Part shown: positions 1,440-17,506 of the stretch, piece after piece
Position numbering within the stretch: the first letter of the stretch is position 1
Layout of the letters: the number at the start of each line of letters is the position of its first letter
Assembly (NCBI GenBank): GCA_001783035.1
Contig: MFQK01000007.1
Location: forward strand, 19,669 to 48,211
DNA: 28,543 bases
DNA from: Candidatus Magasanikbacteria bacterium RIFCSPLOWO2_02_FULL_44_11
Lineage (GTDB): Bacteria; Patescibacteriota; Patescibacteriia; Magasanikbacterales; GWA2-37-8
Reading direction: 5' to 3'
Position numbers and translations under genes: made by a program
Notes under the pieces: generated by a model
Database searches by the model: none
The model's input: the letters and a program-made list of their open reading frames with translations, nothing else
Told to the model about the DNA's origin: nothing

Positions 1440-1510
1440 TTTTATGAGTCGAATGCGTTGTGGAAGGAGATAACCGGTCAAACCGGATCTGAATAGATAA
1501 GAATTACATA

Positions 1511-1538
1511 ACGTCGCATAATATAGATTAAGCGATTA
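1511..1538. other. Putative dif-like Xer recombination site
   Basis: A 28-base element has an 11-6-11 layout: left arm ACGTCGCATAA, centre TATAGA, right arm TTAAGCGATTA. The inner eight bases of the arms are inverted copies (TCGCATAA against TCGCTTAA, 7 of 8). The left arm shares CGCATAA with the XerC half of E. coli dif; the right half is less similar. It lies 42 bases upstream of the tyrosine recombinase start. Single-recombinase systems such as streptococcal XerS/difSL also place the site next to the gene. It could instead be an operator for the recombinase promoter. Confidence 0.45.
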
Positions 1539-1543
1539 TAGTA

Positions 1544-1564
1544 TGGTATACTACTAAGGTATAC
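1544..1564 (+). promoter_or_regulatory. Extended -10 promoter with a GGTATAC direct repeat upstream of the recombinase
   Basis: TATACT at 1547-1552 is preceded by TGG (extended -10). The heptamer GGTATAC occurs twice, at 1545-1551 and 1558-1564, with a 13-base period. Each copy contains the self-complementary GTATAC. The first copy covers the -10 box and the second would cover the start of transcription, so the pair may be a repressor site. No good -35 box is seen. The predicted leader is about 22 bases and lacks a Shine-Dalgarno. Confidence 0.45.
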
Positions 1565-1580
1565 ATATCTACATAATTTT

Positions 1581-2552
1581 ATGTTCAAACAATCCTCCCA
1601 GCCCATCATTGGTCATATAATTGACTTCCTGGAATATTGTGACGTTGAAAAAGGCCTCTCTTCGGTCACTGTCCATAACTACGACAACTTTTTAAAAGTT
1701 TTTTCCGAATGGCTTACCATCAACAAACTGGAAAATTTGAAACCTCACCAGCTTAGCGCCGACCATATTTGGGATTATCGCGTCTATTTATCCAAAAAAG
1801 AAGACCAACGCGGCCGACAGATAAAAAAAACCACCCAAAACTACTATCTCATCGCTCTGCGCAATCTGGTAAATTATTTTGCCGACAAAGATATCCGTTG
1901 TTTGCCGGCTGAAAAAATAAAATTACCAAAATTAACCGCCAAAGACAAAATGATCAAATTTTTGAAATTTGACCAAGTCATCCGATTATTTGAAATGCCT
2001 GACGTATCAAAGCCGGATGGCTTGCGCGATCGAGCGATACTTGAAGTACTCTTCTCCACCGGTTTGCGAGTATCGGAACTAACGTCGCTTAATATTACAA
2101 CTTTCAGCTCTCCCGAAGTATGGAAGGTAAAAAAAAATGATTTGGAAATAAGCGTCAGCGGCAAAGGCGGCTCTGTTCGTGTAATTTATTTTTCAGAAAG
2201 GGCTCTCGGCTGGCTCCAAAAATACTTAAAAACCAGAAAAGACCTCTACTCTCCCCTCTTTATCAATTACCGAAAAGACGAAGATGATAACGAACACCGC
2301 CTCACTTCCCGCTCGGTTGAGCGACTAGTAAGAAAATATACGACCATGGCCGGTTTGCCTGTCAACGCCACTCCGCATACTCTCAGACACAGCTTTGCCA
2401 CTGATCTTTTAGAGCAAGGGGCGGATATGCGCTCGGTCCAGGAACTTCTTGGTCACAAAAATATTGTCACCACTCAAATTTACACGCACGTGACCAACCC
2501 TCAATTGCGAGAAATCCATAAAAAATTTCACGGCGGAAACAATAAACAATAA
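1581..2552 (+). CDS. Tyrosine site-specific recombinase, XerC/XerD family
   Basis: The protein has 323 residues, slightly longer than typical XerC/D (about 300). An N-terminal SAM-like core-binding domain (about 5-110) precedes the catalytic domain. All catalytic residues are visible: R163 in GLRVSEL, K195 in SGKGG, H266 and R269 in PHTLRH, H292 in LLGHKN, and the nucleophile Y301 in QIYTHV. It should therefore be an active strand-exchange enzyme, probably resolving chromosome dimers at dif with FtsK. It stands alone with its own extended -10 promoter, and a dif-like palindrome lies 42 bases upstream. Position next to ftsQ fits a role in division, but an integrative element origin is not excluded. 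No phage or integron genes are nearby. XerC, XerD, XerA or XerS-type assignment cannot be made from sequence alone. Confidence 0.93.
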   Translation: MFKQSSQPIIGHIIDFLEYCDVEKGLSSVTVHNYDNFLKVFSEWLTINKLENLKPHQLSADHIWDYRVYLSKKEDQRGRQIKKTTQNYYLIALRNLVNYFADKDIRCLPAEKIKLPKLTAKDKMIKFLKFDQVIRLFEMPDVSKPDGLRDRAILEVLFSTGLRVSELTSLNITTFSSPEVWKVKKNDLEISVSGKGGSVRVIYFSERALGWLQKYLKTRKDLYSPLFINYRKDEDDNEHRLTSRSVERLVRKYTTMAGLPVNATPHTLRHSFATDLLEQGADMRSVQELLGHKNIVTTQIYTHVTNPQLREIHKKFHGGNNKQ

Positions 2553-2572
2553 TGAACTCCCAACTGAATAGC

Positions 2573-2619
2573 GCTGTATTAATCTGTAAGAGTATCCTCC
2601 TCTGTCTGTCGAATACAGC
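2573..2619. repeat. Inverted repeat/hairpin between recombinase and next gene
   Basis: GCTGTATT (2573-2580) and AATACAGC (2612-2619) form a perfect 8-base-pair stem with a 31-base loop. The stem starts about 20 bases after the recombinase stop (2550-2552) and ends 2 bases before the next ATG (2622). No U-run follows, so it is not a normal intrinsic terminator. It might sequester the start of the next gene or simply be a weak transcription barrier. Confidence 0.35.
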
Positions 2620-2621
2620 AT

Positions 2622-3083
2622 ATGCGCATTAGTCAACAATTACCAAGATTTCCCAAGAAAACAATGTTTATTGTTACCGGAAAACAAGATGCCCGATTCT
2701 ACATCGCCTACAATGACATCATTGAACGAGTAGCGTCATTCCGCATCAGAAAACCAAACTATTCCGATCGCGAAGGTTTTCGACAATTCACTCCGGCTGG
2801 AATTCGCGGTATGATATCCGGCTCGGTGCTAAATCCGGTCGACCGAGCTATACGCCTGGAATTTCGCCACACTATCGCCGCTACAGCCGCAGCACTTTTT
2901 CGCCTGAACCAAATCAAGCGAGTGATCTTATTTGCGCCACGGCAATTCATTTCAGACACAAAATTATCATTACCAAAAAATGTCCAAGCGATTATCACCC
3001 ATATTATCGCCGCCAATCTTTATGAAAGTCACCCCTTTGAATTAATTAAACGTTATCAACTCACTCGCATTAAACATCTATAA
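2622..3083 (+). CDS. Host-attachment-protein / baeRF-like protein
   Basis: This 153-residue protein has no signal peptide or membrane segment. The layout resembles the Host_attach (PF10116-like) and bacterial archaeo-eukaryotic release factor (baeRF) families: an N-terminal strand FIVTGKQDARFYIAYND (where the families begin with a short hydrophobic strand and a DxxxARxF-like run), then a C-terminal segment VILFAPRQFISD followed by LSLPKNVQAIITHIIAANLYESHPFELIKRY, which parallels the vvaPprfLgxLRxxL...vaxxlxkdLtxxpxxel tail of the family. The biochemical function of such proteins is not established. An alternative start at ATG 2664 would begin exactly at the FIVTG strand and also fits; the 2622 start is kept because it gives a longer basic lead-in. 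The assignment rests on remote pattern similarity. Confidence 0.5.
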   Translation: MRISQQLPRFPKKTMFIVTGKQDARFYIAYNDIIERVASFRIRKPNYSDREGFRQFTPAGIRGMISGSVLNPVDRAIRLEFRHTIAATAAALFRLNQIKRVILFAPRQFISDTKLSLPKNVQAIITHIIAANLYESHPFELIKRYQLTRIKHL

Positions 3084-3108
3084 ATTCAATATTTGACTTG
3101 AAAAATAG

Positions 3109-3114
3109 TATAAT
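3109..3114 (+). promoter_or_regulatory. Likely -10 box (TATAAT) for the transglycosylase gene
   Basis: A perfect TATAAT lies 18 bases before the ATG at 3133, giving a predicted leader of about 12 bases without a Shine-Dalgarno. The nearest -35 candidate at proper distance is weak (TTCAAT, 3085-3090, 18-base spacer). Confidence 0.5.
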
Positions 3115-3132
3115 AGACGGTATCATATATGA

Positions 3133-4476
3133 ATGCAGGTAAACATCAGAAAATTGGCCATTACCGGTATTTTACTAATTACCTTGGCCCTACCGACCGG
3201 GTTTGGCGCGCAAGCCCAAACCTCGGTTATTAACGTTTCTGAAAAAGAAAAACTAGAGAAAGAACTGGCCGACATCGAGATCCAAATTAAAGCCTTCGAA
3301 GATGAACTGGCCAATACGCAAGGCGAAAAAAAGACATTAGAACAAGCCATTAAAAGACTTCGCGGCCAGGAAGATAGTCTTCGCTTGCAAATTAAATCGA
3401 CCAACCTAAAATTAAAAGACCTCGACAAAAAATTGGATTATACCGAGCAAAATATCACCAAAACAAAAGCGCAAAGCGCTAAACTAAAAAAACAATTGGT
3501 CGAGGTCATCCGTTTAATAAACCAAAAAGACCAGGAATTATTAATCGAAAGTTTGTCGGCCAAAGATGGTCTTTCCGAAGTGGCCCAAAATATTCAAAAT
3601 TATACCAAGATTTTCAGCCTTCTCCAAGCTATCGTCGCAAAAACCAGGTCGGTGCATGAAGATTTACAAAAACAACAAACCGCTCTCGAAGACCAGCAAG
3701 ACGACGCCCGAAAATTACTGGAGATAAAAGCCTCCCAACAAGAATTGTTGCTTTCCACGCTAGCCGAGAAAAAAGAGCTTTTGACAGAAACAAAAGGAAA
3801 AGAGAACACTTTCCAAGATATGTTAGCTGACGCGAAAAAACGCGCAAATCAGATCAGAAACCGCATTTATGAAACGATTGGCGGAGGCACTCAAGTGACT
3901 TTTGAAAAGGCCGTGGAAATTGCCGATTGGGCCGGCAAACAAACCGGCATTCGCACGCCTTTTCTTTTAGCTGTGTTAACGCAAGAATCAAACTTAGGCA
4001 AAAACGTCGGCACCTGCAATCGCTTGGGCGATCCCTCCGAAAAAAGCTGGCAAGTTATTATGAAACCGACACGAGATCATGAACCTTTCAAAACAATTAC
4101 CTCTGAGTTGGGGCTAGACATCGACATCACGCCTGTTTCTTGTCCGATGCGCCAAGGCGGCAAACAAATCGGTTGGGGTGGCGCCATGGGTCCGGCACAA
4201 TTTATTCCCTCGACCTGGATGGGGTATCGTTCGCGAGTTTCAGCCATAACCGGTCGGCCGGCAAATCCCTGGGACATCAAAGATGCCATGCTGGCGGCAG
4301 CAATAAAGCTCCGTGCCGACGGCGCAAACGGTACCTATGATAGTGAATGGAAAGCGGCGATGAAATATTTTGCCGGTTCCGTTAACCTCGCTTATCGTTT
4401 TTATGGCGACAATGTAATGAAAATAACCGCCAAATACGAAATCGATGTTGAAGCCATCAAAACCGCGAGCTTCTAA
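3133..4476 (+). CDS. Exported coiled-coil lytic transglycosylase (PcsB-like N-terminus, SLT/MltB-like C-terminus)
   Basis: The 447-residue protein has a signal peptide (about 1-29, ending in AQA), a long coiled coil (about 35-240, heptad-rich in E/K/L/Q as in PcsB/EnvC-type proteins) and a lysozyme-fold transglycosylase domain (about 255-440). The putative catalytic glutamate is E285 in LTQESNLG. The downstream GGAMGPAQFIPSTW (349-362) is the hallmark seen in MltB/SLT_2 enzymes. Two cysteines (C295, C337) inside the domain could form a disulfide outside the cell. It would cut the glycan strand of peptidoglycan, with the coiled coil controlling access, possibly through FtsEX-like partners (inference). 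It ends 8 bases from the end of the convergent M23 gene. This enzyme cuts glycan and its neighbour would cut peptide, so they may act together at the septum. Confidence 0.88.
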   Translation: MQVNIRKLAITGILLITLALPTGFGAQAQTSVINVSEKEKLEKELADIEIQIKAFEDELANTQGEKKTLEQAIKRLRGQEDSLRLQIKSTNLKLKDLDKKLDYTEQNITKTKAQSAKLKKQLVEVIRLINQKDQELLIESLSAKDGLSEVAQNIQNYTKIFSLLQAIVAKTRSVHEDLQKQQTALEDQQDDARKLLEIKASQQELLLSTLAEKKELLTETKGKENTFQDMLADAKKRANQIRNRIYETIGGGTQVTFEKAVEIADWAGKQTGIRTPFLLAVLTQESNLGKNVGTCNRLGDPSEKSWQVIMKPTRDHEPFKTITSELGLDIDITPVSCPMRQGGKQIGWGGAMGPAQFIPSTWMGYRSRVSAITGRPANPWDIKDAMLAAAIKLRADGANGTYDSEWKAAMKYFAGSVNLAYRFYGDNVMKITAKYEIDVEAIKTASF

Positions 4477-11146: not shown

Positions 11147-11155
11147 GTAAAGATG

Positions 11156-11164
11156 TGCTATACT
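11156..11164 (+). promoter_or_regulatory. Extended -10 promoter giving a leaderless S11-fusion mRNA
   Basis: TGC-TATACT (hexamer 11159-11164) lies 9 bases before ATG 11174. The predicted start at about 11171 leaves 3 leader bases. No -35 consensus is seen. The same TGTGCTATACT string precedes the M23 gene on the other strand. Confidence 0.6.
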
Positions 11165-11173
11165 AAGGCACAT

Positions 11174-13384
11174 ATGCATCGGAAAATAATTTCTTATTTT
11201 ATCGTCGTCGTATCAATCCTATCCCCTTTCCACGTACTGGCACAAACGGATTTTAATCCGCATTTTATTATTTCCGATCCCGAATTGGAAGACTACCAAA
11301 GTTGGACGCGCCATGATATCCAACAATTCTTGATCAGTCGTGGCAGCTATTTGAAAAATTACGCGGCAGAAAATGTAAGTGGTACCATTAAAATGGCGTC
11401 GGATATTATCTACGACGCCGCGCAACGTTATAAAATTAACCCAAAATTTTTACTCGTCACCCTCCAAAAAGAACAAAGCTTAATTACCGACGATACCCCG
11501 GCTGAAAAACAACTCAATTGGGCTACCGGTTACGCCGTCTGCGACAGCTGCAACCTGGAAGATCCTAAAATTCTGAAATTTAAAGGATTTGGCAAGCAAG
11601 TCGACAACGCCGCCGGCATCATGCGCTGGTACTACGACAACCGCGATAAAGATTTCATAAAGAAAAAAGATCTGGCCACGACCATCGATAACCAGCTCAT
11701 CTCGCCGCAAAGTTGGGCCACGGCTTTTTTGTATACCTACACACCCCACATCCACGGCAACCAAAATTTTTGGCGCATTTGGAACACGTGGTTTGAACAA
11801 GTCTACCCGAATGGCACCTTGATCGTTTCAGCTTCCAGCACTGAGTATTGGCTCATTGACAATGGCCAGCGTCGTAAGTTCAAAAATAAAACCACGCTCA
11901 TCACTCGCACCGACCCGAAAACTGCCGTCACCATGAGCGAGGTTGATTTGAGTAATTATAAAATCGGCGCCGAAATCAGCTTCCCTAATTATTCGCTGCT
12001 CCATACCACCGATAAAACGTTCCTCCTTGATCACGACACCTTGCGACCATTTGCTTCCGAGGCTATAGTTGGAAAACTTGGTTTTAATCCCCAAGAACTT
12101 ATCGACGTCGATGAATTTGAGCTGGCCGGATTAACAATTGGCTCGACTATTACCGCCACCTCAACCGCTCCTCAAGGAGTTGTATATTATATTCCCGAAA
12201 TCAAATCGTATTATTTTTTAAAAGACAATATTCTTTACCCGATAGTCGACAAAGCAATTCTGACATCTGCTTATAAAAACGTCCCCATCGAAAACCATAA
12301 GCTAAAGGATCTGGCAAAATTTGAAACAGCTGAGCGACTAGCTATGTTTAACGACGGCACACTGCTCAAAGACAAAGAGAATCAGACTATCTATGTCATG
12401 GATCAAGGTAAAAAAAGACCAATCGCCGACGATGACACTTTTATCGCCCTCGGCTACAAGAGCTCGAACATTACGACCGCCGCCCATTTGACGCTCGCCA
12501 ACATTCCGACCGGTGAAACGATATTTTTGAACGCCAGTTTACTATCATCAAGAAATAAATATTTAGGTGATAGCAGGGCTGAAATTCCAGATATCTATAC
12601 TAAAAATAACCTATCCGCCTACCTGGTGGCTGAATATCCTTCCAGCCGGATAATTTCCGGAAAGAATATCGACAGTCGCCAACCGATCGCTTCCTTGACC
12701 AAAATCCTCACGGTAAATGAAGTCTTGAATAATAACGTTTCACTTGACCAAACAACTATTTACAATCCTAAACTGCACGCGACATACAGTAACCCACTGC
12801 GCTTTCAGACCGGCGACAAATTAAAAAATAAGGACTTGCTCAATGCCATGATGGTTGTTTCCAACAACACCGCTTCTCGCATGTTGGCCTTGGCCACAAA
12901 AATGGATGAAACCACCTTTGTTGAAAAAATTAACAAGCGCCTGGAAGAATGGGGCGCGGATAACACGACTATTGCCGACGTCACCGGTCTCGACGAAAAC
13001 AATAAATCAACCGCCCGCGACCTGTTGAAGATATTTACAAAAGTCTTGAATAATGACACTATACGTGTGGCTTTGGGCCAAGCAACCTATCCGTTTAGCA
13101 AGACCTCCGCTAAAAATAAGACAGAAAAATGGACTTTGCATAACACCAACCAAATTATTTTCAAAATTCCTTTTGCTAAACGGCACTATAAAGTCGTGGC
13201 CACAAAAACCGGCTACACCGACGAAGCGAAGGCAACCCTGCTCATGCTCATCGAGGATAAGGTCACCAAAAAACAATATATTGTCGTGACACTCGGCAAC
13301 CCCGATTATGCCAAGCGATTTCAAGAACCTCATAAAATCGCCGAATGGATTACCACCTCTAAAGTTTCCGTTGCCGGCAATTAA
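11174..13384 (+). CDS. Lysozyme-like domain fused to S11 D-alanyl-D-alanine carboxypeptidase
   Basis: This exported protein has 736 residues. It has a signal peptide (about 1-23, ending LAQ) and then a lysozyme-like domain (about 30-215) with FLLVTLQKEQSLIT, whose E100 is the likely catalytic acid; the same string occurs in actinobacterial lysozyme-like proteins. A run of about four degenerate 50-70-residue repeats follows (about 215-455: YWLIDNGQRRKF, FLLDHDTLRPF, YYFLKDNILYPI, IYVMDQGKKRPI). The C-terminus is a penicillin-binding S11 peptidase (about 465-730) with SLTK (507-510), SNN (563-565) and KTG (678-680), so its active site is complete. It would trim terminal D-Ala from stem peptides and may also cleave or bind glycan. 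The repeat region probably binds the wall. ATG 11174 is chosen because the promoter -10 covers the upstream ATG at 11153. Confidence 0.88.
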   Translation: MHRKIISYFIVVVSILSPFHVLAQTDFNPHFIISDPELEDYQSWTRHDIQQFLISRGSYLKNYAAENVSGTIKMASDIIYDAAQRYKINPKFLLVTLQKEQSLITDDTPAEKQLNWATGYAVCDSCNLEDPKILKFKGFGKQVDNAAGIMRWYYDNRDKDFIKKKDLATTIDNQLISPQSWATAFLYTYTPHIHGNQNFWRIWNTWFEQVYPNGTLIVSASSTEYWLIDNGQRRKFKNKTTLITRTDPKTAVTMSEVDLSNYKIGAEISFPNYSLLHTTDKTFLLDHDTLRPFASEAIVGKLGFNPQELIDVDEFELAGLTIGSTITATSTAPQGVVYYIPEIKSYYFLKDNILYPIVDKAILTSAYKNVPIENHKLKDLAKFETAERLAMFNDGTLLKDKENQTIYVMDQGKKRPIADDDTFIALGYKSSNITTAAHLTLANIPTGETIFLNASLLSSRNKYLGDSRAEIPDIYTKNNLSAYLVAEYPSSRIISGKNIDSRQPIASLTKILTVNEVLNNNVSLDQTTIYNPKLHATYSNPLRFQTGDKLKNKDLLNAMMVVSNNTASRMLALATKMDETTFVEKINKRLEEWGADNTTIADVTGLDENNKSTARDLLKIFTKVLNNDTIRVALGQATYPFSKTSAKNKTEKWTLHNTNQIIFKIPFAKRHYKVVATKTGYTDEAKATLLMLIEDKVTKKQYIVVTLGNPDYAKRFQEPHKIAEWITTSKVSVAGN

Positions 13385-13393
13385 TTAAATATT

Positions 13394-14188
13394 ATGTCAC
13401 TAGTCTTCGCCGCAGTCACCCCCCATACACCGCTACTCATCCCGTCGATCGGAAAAAACAATTTGAAAAAAATTACCAAAACTAAAGAAGCTTTGCAAAA
13501 AATGGAAGAAGAGCTTTATTTGTCGCACCCTGACACGATTATTATAATTTCTCCCCATGGTACGGTTATGTCGGATGCTTTCACTGTTAATTTTTGCTCC
13601 GAATACTCTATCGATCTAAAAGAATTTGGCGATTTATTAACCAAACAACGCTTTCGCGGCGAATCACATCTTCCCTATCACATTCGCCAGGCCAGCTATG
13701 AACATGACATTAAAACAGTCCTCATCAGCAAAAGTGAGCTTGATTACGGCTCGGCCGTGCCGCTAACATACCTTACTGCTCATCTGCCAAATGTTTCTAT
13801 AATGCCAATCGGCTTTTCGGATCTCGAATGGAAACAACATCTGGATTTCGGATATATTTTGAAAGAGCAAATTATGCGGACCAACCGCCGCATCGCGGTT
13901 ATCGCTTCGGCCGACCTATCCCACGCCTTAACATCCGAAGCGCCGGCCGGTTATCACGCCAAAGGTAAAGAATTCGACGAAATCATGCAGGCCTTATTGT
14001 CATCGCATAATACGGCAGGTATGTTGAAACTAGGACCGCAATTTTTGAGCGATGCGGCCGAATGCGGATTCCGATCATTACTTATCATGATGGGTGTTTT
14101 ACGCGACATGAATTACAACTATCAATCCTACGCCTACGAATCACCTTTTGGCATCGGTTACCTGACCGCCGAATTTAATCTCGCTTAA
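13394..14188 (+). CDS. LigB/MEMO-like metalloprotein (class III extradiol dioxygenase subunit B-like)
   Basis: The 264-residue cytoplasmic protein follows the S11 gene after 9 bases without a visible promoter. It shows the class III extradiol dioxygenase B-subunit layout: VTPHTPLL with H11, IISPHG with H55, a PLTYL segment after DYGS, ASADLSH with H177 and a C-terminal YESPFGIGYL with E249. These fit the metal-binding H, H, E and catalytic H positions of LigB, though DYGS replaces the usual DHG, so a histidine of true ring-cleaving enzymes is lost. Such proteins and the related MEMO family are widespread in reduced genomes without aromatic degradation pathways, so a real dioxygenase role is unlikely. 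Nearby genes give no substrate. The true role is unknown. Confidence 0.75.
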   Translation: MSLVFAAVTPHTPLLIPSIGKNNLKKITKTKEALQKMEEELYLSHPDTIIIISPHGTVMSDAFTVNFCSEYSIDLKEFGDLLTKQRFRGESHLPYHIRQASYEHDIKTVLISKSELDYGSAVPLTYLTAHLPNVSIMPIGFSDLEWKQHLDFGYILKEQIMRTNRRIAVIASADLSHALTSEAPAGYHAKGKEFDEIMQALLSSHNTAGMLKLGPQFLSDAAECGFRSLLIMMGVLRDMNYNYQSYAYESPFGIGYLTAEFNLA

Positions 14189-14199
14189 CTTCACGGGCT

Positions 14200-16059
14200 A
14201 TGATCGCCCATGTTATTCTGGCAAAGCGAGGGACTCTTCATCTTCCCTATTTTGATTATAACGTCCCGCCTGAACTTGAAAAAACCATCTGTGCGGGCCA
14301 ACTTGTCACCATACCCTTTCGAACGCGTATTGAATGGGGAATTATTTTATCACTCGCAAAAACCGAGGCTGGTTCAAAAACCAAAGACATCATAAAAATT
14401 ATTTCACCGTTCCCCCTCATACCCCCGCCGCAACTCGCCTATTTACAAGAAATAAGCGAGCTCTACCACATTTCCTTGGGATTCCTCGTCAAAAGCAATC
14501 TTTTACCTCTTAAAAAAAGAAAGCTGGCCACTCTTGATGAACGAAAACCAAAATTTAAACCTACCAAAATCAAACCAACCACCAAACCATCTAATTTTAT
14601 TTATCGAAGTGATTTAGAAAAACAAAACTATCTTCTCCAAACTATTAAGAAAAACGAGCAAACCCTTATCTTGGTGCCGGAGGTAAATGATTGTTTACCA
14701 CTCCAAGCACTGATTGAAAAAACACACCCGGGCTCGAGTGTCGTCATCACCAGCAGTTTAACCGAAAAAGAATTATTCGAACGCTGGATCGCCGTCTGGT
14801 TAAACGAAAAAACCGTTATTATCGGCACGCGAGGAGCTATTTTTTTACCGTTTAATAAACTTCATACTGTCATAATCGATAACGAGGGGCACGACGGCCA
14901 CAAAAGCTGGGATATGGCCCCGCGCTATCATGTCCGCGATGCCGTCTTTTTCATGGCCAAACACCATGGCGCGAACGTCCATCTCTTATCACATACGCCA
15001 TCCATCGAAACCTACTTTTTTGCCAAACACGGTGTCTACCAATCAGAACCTATCGCTCTACTACCTTTTGAACACAAAAAGTATTCATTGCTTAATGTTA
15101 GCGCGGAGAGACGTGGCGGCAACACCAGCCAATTAAGCGCCGATGTTATTGAAACACTCCAAGCTGGCGGCACAGTTTTTTTGTTTTGCCACCGCCGAGG
15201 CACGATGAGCTACATCAGCTGTCGCGATTGCCAAAAAGTTATTACTTGCCCAAAGTGTGAGCGTTCACTCACCTTTCACCGCCCTACCAATAATCTGCGC
15301 TGTCATCATTGCGCCTATAACCAACCCATGCGGCCAAACTGCGAAAAATGCAACGGCATCAACCTCGCCCTCTATGGAATTGGTACGGATTATGTCGTGC
15401 AGGAAATAAAAAAATTACTTCCCAATGATAAAAGGCCAATTATCACCATAGACCAAGATAGCGAAAACATCACTATTCCCGACACCGCTGGCCTGATTGT
15501 AGGCACACAATATGCTTGGCGTTTTATTCCCTGGGAAAAGTTAGCGGCGATGGTCATAGTCGATGCCGATACGCCGCTTTTTGTACCCGAATACCGAACC
15601 GCCGAACGCCTGTGGCTCGAGCTTAGAGATATGCTCTATCGCCTACCGAAAAAATCGCCGCTTTTAATCCAAACCAATCATCCGGAACATCCGCTTTTTG
15701 CCGCCTTATCCGAGCCTGACATTTTTTATCAACAAGAAATCGCCCAAAGAAAACTGCTCAAATATCCACCTTATCGCTATCTATTAAAACTAGTTTTTGG
15801 ACACCTGGAGGAAACAATCGTTAAAAAAGAAACCCTACAAGCGTTTGAGACACTCACCCGATTGACGAAAGACATTCCTGATTGTACAATAACGTCGCCT
15901 TATTCACTTGAACCGGCCTACAACAAAGGTCGGCATTGGCAAGCCATTCTTATAAAACTCCCCTATAGCGCCTACAAGAAATATTGGCGGCAAATTGTGG
16001 CGCTTTTGCCGGATTCTTGTAAAGTCGACCCCAATCCCCTGACCATTTTTACCTTATGA
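14200..16059 (+). CDS. priA: Degenerate primosomal protein N' (PriA-like, helicase motifs lost)
   Basis: The 619-residue protein aligns by landmarks along PriA: an N-terminal 3'-DNA-binding domain (about 1-95), a helicase core, a zinc module and a C-terminal domain. All eight zinc cysteines are kept (C341, C344, C350, C353, C368, C371, C381, C384), as are LVPEV (158-162), IIGTRGAIF (207-215) and GIGTDYV. The ATPase motifs are gone. The Walker A region reads FIYRSDLEKQNY (133-144) instead of GxTGSGKTE, motif II is DNEGHD (227-232) instead of DEEHD, motif III has SHTPS for SATPS, KGHDFP is missing after GTQ (435-437), and there is no QVAGRAGR. It should bind forks or recruit partners but not unwind. 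The frame is open and long, so it is maintained and not a decaying pseudogene. def starts inside its end (ATGA overlap). Confidence 0.85.
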   Translation: MIAHVILAKRGTLHLPYFDYNVPPELEKTICAGQLVTIPFRTRIEWGIILSLAKTEAGSKTKDIIKIISPFPLIPPPQLAYLQEISELYHISLGFLVKSNLLPLKKRKLATLDERKPKFKPTKIKPTTKPSNFIYRSDLEKQNYLLQTIKKNEQTLILVPEVNDCLPLQALIEKTHPGSSVVITSSLTEKELFERWIAVWLNEKTVIIGTRGAIFLPFNKLHTVIIDNEGHDGHKSWDMAPRYHVRDAVFFMAKHHGANVHLLSHTPSIETYFFAKHGVYQSEPIALLPFEHKKYSLLNVSAERRGGNTSQLSADVIETLQAGGTVFLFCHRRGTMSYISCRDCQKVITCPKCERSLTFHRPTNNLRCHHCAYNQPMRPNCEKCNGINLALYGIGTDYVVQEIKKLLPNDKRPIITIDQDSENITIPDTAGLIVGTQYAWRFIPWEKLAAMVIVDADTPLFVPEYRTAERLWLELRDMLYRLPKKSPLLIQTNHPEHPLFAALSEPDIFYQQEIAQRKLLKYPPYRYLLKLVFGHLEETIVKKETLQAFETLTRLTKDIPDCTITSPYSLEPAYNKGRHWQAILIKLPYSAYKKYWRQIVALLPDSCKVDPNPLTIFTL

Positions 16060-16553
16060 TCTACGACATCGTTTTTGACCACAATCCAATGCTTCATCGA
16101 CGAAGCGCCGATATTGATATCAAAACAATCACTTCTCGCCAGATGCAAAAATTCATTAAAGACATGATCGAAACCATGTACGTCAAAGACGGCGTTGGGT
16201 TGGCTTCGGTCCAAGTCGGCAAACCCATCCAGCTATGTGTCATTGCCAAAAATTACAATACACTCAATCAACGCGATGACCTGGTACTCATCAATCCAAC
16301 CTGGGAAAAATTATCAACTCATACCAATATCGACGAAGAAGGCTGCCTGTCGGTACCCGGACTCTATGGCAAAGTAAAACGGTACAGCCAAATTAAAGTT
16401 AAGGCCTTTGACCACAAGGGCCGCGCCCTCGATTTTGTGGCCGAAGATTTCTTCGCCCGCATCATCCAGCACGAATACGACCATCTCGACGGCCATTTAT
16501 TTATTGAAAAAACCAAAGACGTACACCAGTTTGACAAGACAAAAGCTATTTAA
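16056..16553 (+). CDS. def: Peptide deformylase
   Basis: The 165-residue enzyme removes the N-formyl group from nascent proteins. The three family motifs are present: GVGLASVQVG (46-55), EEGCLSVPG with the metal ligand C97, and IIQHEYDHLDG with ligands H139 and H143 and catalytic E140. Motif 1 is slightly off consensus (ASVQ in place of AAPQ), which lines the active site and could alter inhibitor binding. It overlaps the end of priA by 4 bases and is followed by fmt after a small hairpin. This is the common def-fmt pairing, with priA upstream as in many bacteria. Confidence 0.97.
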   Translation: MIYDIVFDHNPMLHRRSADIDIKTITSRQMQKFIKDMIETMYVKDGVGLASVQVGKPIQLCVIAKNYNTLNQRDDLVLINPTWEKLSTHTNIDEEGCLSVPGLYGKVKRYSQIKVKAFDHKGRALDFVAEDFFARIIQHEYDHLDGHLFIEKTKDVHQFDKTKAI

Positions 16554-16582: not shown

Positions 16583-17506
16583 ATGCCAAAAATTATTTTT
16601 TTCGGGACGCAACATTTCGGGGCGGGTATGCTCGATGCCCTTATTGATAGTAAACAATATGAAATTGCGGCAATTGTGACCCAACCGGACCGACCAGTCG
16701 GTCGAGCGCATGAAATCGAAATGTCACCGGTAAAAAAATTAGCGCTGGCTCGAGGCATTAAGACAATTTTACAGCCTGAAACGCTTAAAAATTTCACGGA
16801 AACTACCAAACTTCCCGAGGCTGATGCTTTTGTCGTTTGCCAATATGGCCTCATTATCCCCCAGGCCGTCCTTGACCTGCCTAAAAAAGGAACCATCAAC
16901 GTCCACACATCTCTTTTACCAAAATATCGCGGCGCTTCCCCCATCCAAACTGCCTTGATCAATGGCGAAACTGAAACCGGCGTTACGATCATGCTTATGG
17001 ATGCGAAAATGGACCACGGACCGATCTTGGCACAAGAAAATATACTAATCACTGCCGATGACACCGCGGTGACCTTGGCCGAAAAAATGATCCCCATAGC
17101 TAAAAAATTACTCATCCAAACCCTGGCCGGCTGGTTGAACGGCATGGTATCGCCCCAAGAACAAAATCACACCAAGGCCACCTTGTGCACGACCCTATCC
17201 CGCGCTGACGGCAAACTTAATTTTTCTAAAACCGCTTCGGAATTATATAATATGTATCGCGGCACCTATCTCTGGCCCGGTGTTTGGACCACTTGGAAAG
17301 GCAAACGACTTAAACTATTAAACATCCGCCCAAGCGACAGACCAGGAAAACCCAGACAGGCCATTATTGACCAGAAAAAAATTTTAGTTGGCGCTGCCTA
17401 CGGATCCCTGGAAGTGCGCGAACTTCAGCTCGAAGGTAAAAAAGCTATGTCAACCGAACAATTCATCGCCGGCTACCCGGACTTTAATAACGCCACTCTC
17501 GAATAA
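16583..17506 (+). CDS. fmt: Methionyl-tRNA formyltransferase
   Basis: The 307-residue protein formylates Met-tRNA-fMet using 10-formyl-tetrahydrofolate. An N-terminal Rossmann domain begins KIIFFGTQHFGAGML. The catalytic INVHTSLLPKYRGASPIQ carries the Asn and His of the active site, and MDHGPILAQ carries part of the catalytic aspartate segment. The C-terminal OB-like tRNA-binding domain runs from about residue 205 to the end. Length is normal. It acts before def in the formylation cycle. A hairpin precedes it, and its stop overlaps the start of the next gene by one base (TAATG). Confidence 0.96.
   Translation: MPKIIFFGTQHFGAGMLDALIDSKQYEIAAIVTQPDRPVGRAHEIEMSPVKKLALARGIKTILQPETLKNFTETTKLPEADAFVVCQYGLIIPQAVLDLPKKGTINVHTSLLPKYRGASPIQTALINGETETGVTIMLMDAKMDHGPILAQENILITADDTAVTLAEKMIPIAKKLLIQTLAGWLNGMVSPQEQNHTKATLCTTLSRADGKLNFSKTASELYNMYRGTYLWPGVWTTWKGKRLKLLNIRPSDRPGKPRQAIIDQKKILVGAAYGSLEVRELQLEGKKAMSTEQFIAGYPDFNNATLE

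Follow-up and report, generated by a model that had tools for sequence, protein, structure and literature searches.

The window analyzed here, a 28,543-nucleotide stretch of contig MFQK01000007.1 from Candidatus Magasanikbacteria bacterium RIFCSPLOWO2_02_FULL_44_11, carries a priA homologue in an open frame that occupies exactly positions 14200-16059 of the plus strand and encodes 619 residues. A first-pass annotation made from the sequence alone had described a long open frame for a PriA homologue without its helicase motifs, and both parts of that description hold: family, domain, and fold matches identify the protein as PriA, and the motor motifs are missing. The features of the locus, in window coordinates, are as follows.

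11153-13384, plus strand: 743-residue protein with a D-Ala-D-Ala carboxypeptidase domain in its last third only (domain search)
13394-14188, plus strand: LigB/Memo-like gene, just before priA (PF02900, 120.8 bits)
14200..16059, plus strand: predicted PriA pseudohelicase, 619 residues, ATG start (open frame, TIGR00595, and Foldseek)
14248..14493, plus strand: 3'-DNA-binding domain, residues 17-98 (PF17764, E 4.8e-14, 52.4 bits against a cut-off of 22.7)
14590..14634, plus strand: motif I site, residues 131-145, with a short unrelated stretch in place of the P-loop (aligned with intact CPR PriAs; Walker A absent from the protein)
14872..14892, plus strand: degenerate motif II at the DEEH position, residues 225-231 (alignment with E. 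coli PriA)
14902..14940, plus strand: conserved loop at the place of the PriA aromatic loop, residues 235-247 (K235, P241, and R242 invariant in 16 family members)
15220..15351, plus strand: zinc module with eight cysteines, residues 341-384 (PF18319, E 1e-7, over cut-off; all eight invariant in 16 family members)
15493..15540, plus strand: degenerate motif V, residues 432-447 (alignment with E. coli PriA)
15628..15648, plus strand: site of the lost motif VI, the QVAGRAGR arginine finger (alignment with E. coli PriA)
15769..16011, plus strand: PriA C-terminal domain, residues 524-604, a weak match (PF18074, E 0.14, 13.5 bits, below the cut-off of 26.9)
16056..16553, plus strand: def, peptide deformylase (TIGR00079, over cut-off), its start overlapping the priA stop
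16583..17506, plus strand: fmt, methionyl-tRNA formyltransferase (TIGR00460, over cut-off)

By its family score, 3' domain, zinc module, and whole-length PriA fold, the protein belongs to the PriA orthologue group. Its full-length score in the TIGR00595 family profile search is 271.1 bits against a cut-off of 230.35, so that automatic annotation would label this motor-less protein a helicase. The predicted model, built from an alignment of 62 rows of which 6 were intact PriAs, is confident (pLDDT 92, pTM 0.90), has both helicase lobes folded in the prediction, and aligns with E. coli PriA through to the C-terminal end; its nine best Foldseek matches are all PriA structures. At the positions aligned to E. 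coli F16, D17, Y18, and K61, which we take to be residues of the 3'-end pocket, the window PriA has F, D, Y, and K, and the loop at residues 235-247 is presumably the aromatic loop of PriA. The eight zinc cysteines that were said to be kept are all at ligand positions (341, 344, 350, 353, 368, 371, 381, and 384), and mean column identity across the 16 family members is 50%. With the active PriA helicases of known structure (8fak, 6dcr, 6dgd, and 4nl4), the window protein has in common the 3' domain, two lobes, zinc module, C-terminal domain, and overall fold; unlike them, it has no ATP-site motifs, no arginine finger, and no room for a winged helix. These structures are from E. coli and Klebsiella.

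Alignment and string searches bear out the reported absence or alteration of Walker A, DEEH, the motif V block, and QVAGRAGR. Compared with E. coli PriA, DEEH has become DNEG, the motif V block (KGHHFP in its E. coli form) has become RFIPWE, and QVAGR has become DMLYR followed by a gap. On either side of the P-loop, the sequence can still be aligned with intact CPR PriAs, and the P-loop itself is swapped for a short unrelated stretch; the P-loop and Q motif are thus gone, and the lobe has not been removed. Walker-type strings (GxxxxGK[ST] with A or G first, GxGK[ST], and GK[ST]), D[EN]x[HDQ], and GRxGR occur nowhere in the protein, which means that the motifs have not moved elsewhere in it, as the first-pass annotation had allowed they might. 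Parts of motif Ia, the GTR motif, the aromatic-loop region, and motif IV remain in the alignment. Judged by its sequence, then, the protein has none of the Walker A, DEEH, motif V, and QVAGRAGR elements that mark an active PriA helicase, and there are strong grounds to expect that ATPase activity and unwinding are absent.

The same selective pattern was seen when retention was scored in 91 motor-less PriAs (the other 17 of 108 being very divergent or of separate origin) at 98 positions conserved in at least 85% of 71 intact CPR PriAs. Mean retention was highest in the 3' domain (0.86), the zinc module (0.86), the stretch after motif VI (0.85), and two C-terminal positions (0.85). It took middle values in the GTR motif (0.69), motif IV (0.59), motif V (0.45), motif Ia (0.35), motif III (0.34), and motif II (0.32), and was lowest in the Q motif with motif I (0.12) and in motif VI (0.05); within motif V, K544 was kept at 0.14 and G545 at 0.02. 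Loss is therefore heaviest at the ATP-binding and ATP-sensing parts. A winged-helix domain of the E. coli type has no room in the window PriA, where about 30 residues separate the 3' domain from the aligned lobe 1. Walker A lies at residue 116-170 in 28 of the 31 intact CPR PriAs measured (at 214, 220, and 322 in the other three, and at 224 in E. coli), and given this equally short spacing in intact proteins, the shortening of this region seems to be older.

With the window protein as query, matches came from 89 of the 114 genomes searched, among them its own, and 25 gave none. We examined 68 of the 88 other matched genomes and 110 further genomes of the phylum, that is 178 relatives, or 180 sequences with the window and E. 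coli. These relatives were chosen from search hits, with intact ones picked higher up the list than motor-less ones, and the proportions among them are not frequencies. Of the 180 sequences, 72 have Walker A (E. coli and 71 relatives) and 108 do not. Within the window's class, all 71 relatives examined (68 from the window-protein search and 3 from the phylum-wide set) have no Walker A, with frames of 502-703 residues, which answers in the affirmative the question, raised with the first-pass annotation, of whether related genomes share the loss; outside the class, in the same phylum, 71 examined relatives have Walker A and 36 lack it. Strict QxxGRxGR occurs in 67/72 sequences with Walker A (one of the other five contains unknown letters) and in 0/108 without, and DExH in 64/72 and 5/108. 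At least eight cysteines are present in the zinc stretch of 88/108 motor-less sequences and 63/72 with Walker A; fewer than eight are found in 20/108 (4 with none) and likewise in 9/72.

On the scale of the phylum, 103 of 285 genomes score over the TIGR00595 cut-off, 83 of them at 430 bits or more. Of the 20 genomes between the cut-off and 430 bits, 18 were examined (the window's included; G033 and G140 are the other two), and all are without Walker A. The PriA 3' domain was found at E <= 0.001 in 155 of the 285 genomes and not in the other 130, a count in which very divergent PriAs may be missed. Several side observations concern these relatives. Nine PriA-like frames (L060 and L063-L067 of family f7, with L061, L062, and L068) are shorter, at 502-585 residues, with zinc cysteines partly or wholly lost in the alignment, and are perhaps a further step of reduction. 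One relative, G109, has a stop codon inside its match to the window protein, a point against the reading favored below. A 373-residue protein on a 1608-base contig (P0095) combines a RuvC domain with a PriA 3' domain and represents either a fusion or a chimeric contig. A search of the open literature on PriA in Patescibacteria, the candidate phyla radiation, and Parcubacteria found no study of it; the one paper that came up appears to use priA as a marker gene.

The number of motor losses was assessed with trees built without the motif columns: one of 124 rows (16 very divergent rows of 140 left out), one of 127 rows (18 very divergent and 35 close rows of 180 left out), and one of 65 rows (61 hand-picked rows and 4 Bacteroidota). 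The motor-less label needs 3, 3, and 4 changes on them, respectively, and the starred branches force at least two in each. One motor-less sequence, L109 of family f94, groups with intact sequences of its own family with support of 99-100 (1, 8, and 4 intact rows in the three trees). A single origin of all 31 motor-less rows in the 65-row tree was rejected (p-AU 0.0167), in a test limited by long branches and a quick search. When L109 was omitted, as was decided once the tree had been seen, the one-clade constraint was not rejected and scored better than the free tree, again with long branches and a quick search. We infer at least two losses, the minimum that fits being an old loss, covering the window's class, together with a second, separate one; the rest of the count is uncertain because of the long branches. 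L109 itself (positions 1493-3412, plus strand, genome G304) is such a separate motor loss, and eight other examined members of f94 keep Walker A. In three further f94 genomes (G219, G280, and G366), the PriA 3' domain was not found.

Selection was examined by the Nei-Gojobori method in six motor-less pairs of more than 68% identity, two from the window's family and none including the window's own gene. The dN/dS values are 0.178, 0.050, 0.127, 0.175, 0.137, and 0.080, ratios that are rough since dS is near or above 1 in five of the six pairs (it is well under 1, at 0.36, in the other). Eight of 13 intact pairs gave 0.042-0.113, and the other five had no defined dS. The values in the motor-less pairs are somewhat higher, which leaves room for some relaxation, and at 0.05-0.18 they agree with purifying selection, for which the first-pass annotation had proposed a test. 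The window PriA itself keeps 118 of the 129 sites conserved among its 15 relatives (0.915), within the relatives' own range of 0.857-1.0. Gene order is also retained: def lies downstream of priA in 81/107 motor-less and 32/71 intact loci, and fmt in 79/107 and 29/71. Taken together, the open frames, low dN/dS, confident PriA fold, and priA-def-fmt order argue for a protein in use. Upstream of priA, a match to the LigB/Memo-like gene was observed in 63/107 motor-less and 4/71 intact loci, and one to the 743-residue carboxypeptidase-domain protein in 64/107 and 0/71; many intact loci were taken with shorter flanks, and both contrasts may be inflated by this.

The genome of the window (983 kb, 56 contigs, 95% complete) was searched for other parts of a restart system. 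It has one PriA over cut-off and two weak hits that are UvrB and RecG, so neither a second PriA nor the separate active copy that could have made this one redundant was found in the 95% covered. DnaB is present (550 bits), as is an SSB with a tail ending DIPF. The first-pass annotation had named DnaC as the loading partner; this did not stand, as DnaC was not found and the sole match to PF01695, the DnaC/IstB ATPase family, is DnaA. The PF01695 search thus gave no DnaC-type loader of the kind that belongs to PriA-PriB-DnaT-DnaC restart. The loader found is DciA (33.5 bits, 97 residues), encoded on the window's contig about 9 kb before the window. Homologues of DciA are described as having no ATPase domain (PMC5720831). 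Among 57 genomes (G000-G056), the window's own included, DciA was found in 51; it is missing in 5 of the 11 genomes without a PriA match versus 1 of the 46 with one. Four genomes of a single family in the window's order (G029, G034, G037, and G040; family f6) have neither a PriA nor a DciA match, and as four of the five co-absences come from this one family, they may represent one event. The DciA open frame (G000:C7:10204-10428; L145:1444-1737) has a 4-base overlap with the end of another frame, which by eye resembles the C-terminal part of a UvrD/RecB-type helicase-nuclease.

A PriA without ATPase activity has a precedent. The PriA of D. radiodurans shows no ATPase activity (assayed with dT36 as the DNA) and no unwinding, and has been called a pseudohelicase; it binds single-stranded DNA and forks about two-fold more weakly than E. 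coli PriA and forms a complex with DnaB (PMC4504706). It still has a Walker A box, in which arginine replaces the lysine of GKT, its Walker B is poor, and the motif changes hold across the Deinococcus-Thermus phylum (PMC4504706). Broken ATPase motifs, retained DNA-binding parts, and a lineage-wide distribution are common to that phylum and the window PriA. However, the Walker A box is altered in Deinococcus, whereas the window PriA, which belongs to another phylum, has lost all of the P-loop and motif VI along with part of motif V; moreover, fork and DnaB binding were measured for the D. radiodurans protein and are predicted for the window PriA. An ATPase-dead PriA pseudohelicase is therefore already known (PMC4504706), and what is new is that part of the CPR has lost the P-loop entirely. 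The proposal of an unusual restart design has to be toned down in view of this precedent. A further comparison is with Actinobacteria. Actinobacterial PriA is described in databases as lacking helicase motifs, and the actinobacterial PRK14873 models of NCBIfam have matches to parts of residues 147-525 of the window PriA; the likeness between the two would lie in the loss of motor motifs. A review calls mycobacterial PriA both a helicase loader and a primosomal helicase.

From its sequence, the window protein is most likely a conserved PriA pseudohelicase that would serve as a fork-binding platform for DnaB reloading. We consider it probable that this priA has had its motor dismantled and its fork-recognition parts kept, and that the protein acts at forks without ATP. 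It would bind stalled or repaired forks with its 3' domain, its zinc module, and what is left of the helicase lobes, and would offer a platform, independent of ATP, for returning DnaB to DNA, probably with DciA. Fork binding, contact with DnaB, and a role in restart are what we infer for it, and the scaffold role first proposed for the protein would fit. That a large part of the CPR has ATPase-free restart, in which a P-loop-less PriA marks the fork, DciA delivers DnaB, and DnaB is the sole restart motor, is a more tentative idea, to which we give rather less than an even chance.

The gene could instead be decaying towards disappearance in the course of genome reduction, in keeping with the many CPR genomes that have no recognizable PriA (130/285 without the 3' domain, 25/114 without a match), with the zinc ligands that are also gone in some motor-less homologues, and with dN/dS values slightly above those of intact pairs. 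This we hold to be very unlikely, as frames are long and Walker A is absent in all 71 examined relatives of the class, a class-wide constraint, the loss is selective rather than random, and low dN/dS goes together with the column identity seen in the family; selection values and gene order speak against simple decay as a general explanation. Less easily set aside, and in our judgment unlikely, is a PriA-derived binder of forks or 3' ends that works outside restart, for example in fork protection or the marking of nascent 3' ends, and has no part in loading DnaB. The retained 3' domain and zinc module would suit such a protein, and the gene has no positional tie to DnaB, its neighbors being def and fmt; since 130 of 285 genomes have no PriA 3' domain, PriA appears dispensable in much of the phylum, and a retained protein could do something else. 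Yet DnaB is still bound by the D. radiodurans pseudohelicase (PMC4504706), and the conserved positions after motif VI are kept as well as those of the 3' domain. The folding of both lobes in the predicted model would also suit ATP hydrolysis through a rebuilt site, but no P-loop-like string is found throughout the protein and the arginine-finger motif never occurs without Walker A in the 180 sequences, so that this is scarcely to be expected.

For genome annotation, the label "replication restart helicase PriA" can be wrong, as in all 18 of the 18 low-scoring TIGR00595 genomes examined. For the biology of restart, ATPase-dead E. coli PriA still assembles primosomes and E. coli with such mutants live (PMC4504706), and it is for this reason an open question why PriA needs helicase activity. 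A single phylum now offers a natural series from intact to motor-less to PriA not found, with at least two inferred losses, and makes this question testable by comparison. On the more tentative idea of an ATPase-free restart, motor loss on at least two occasions would point to unwinding as the half of PriA that can be spared, and to the marking of forks as the half that is conserved.
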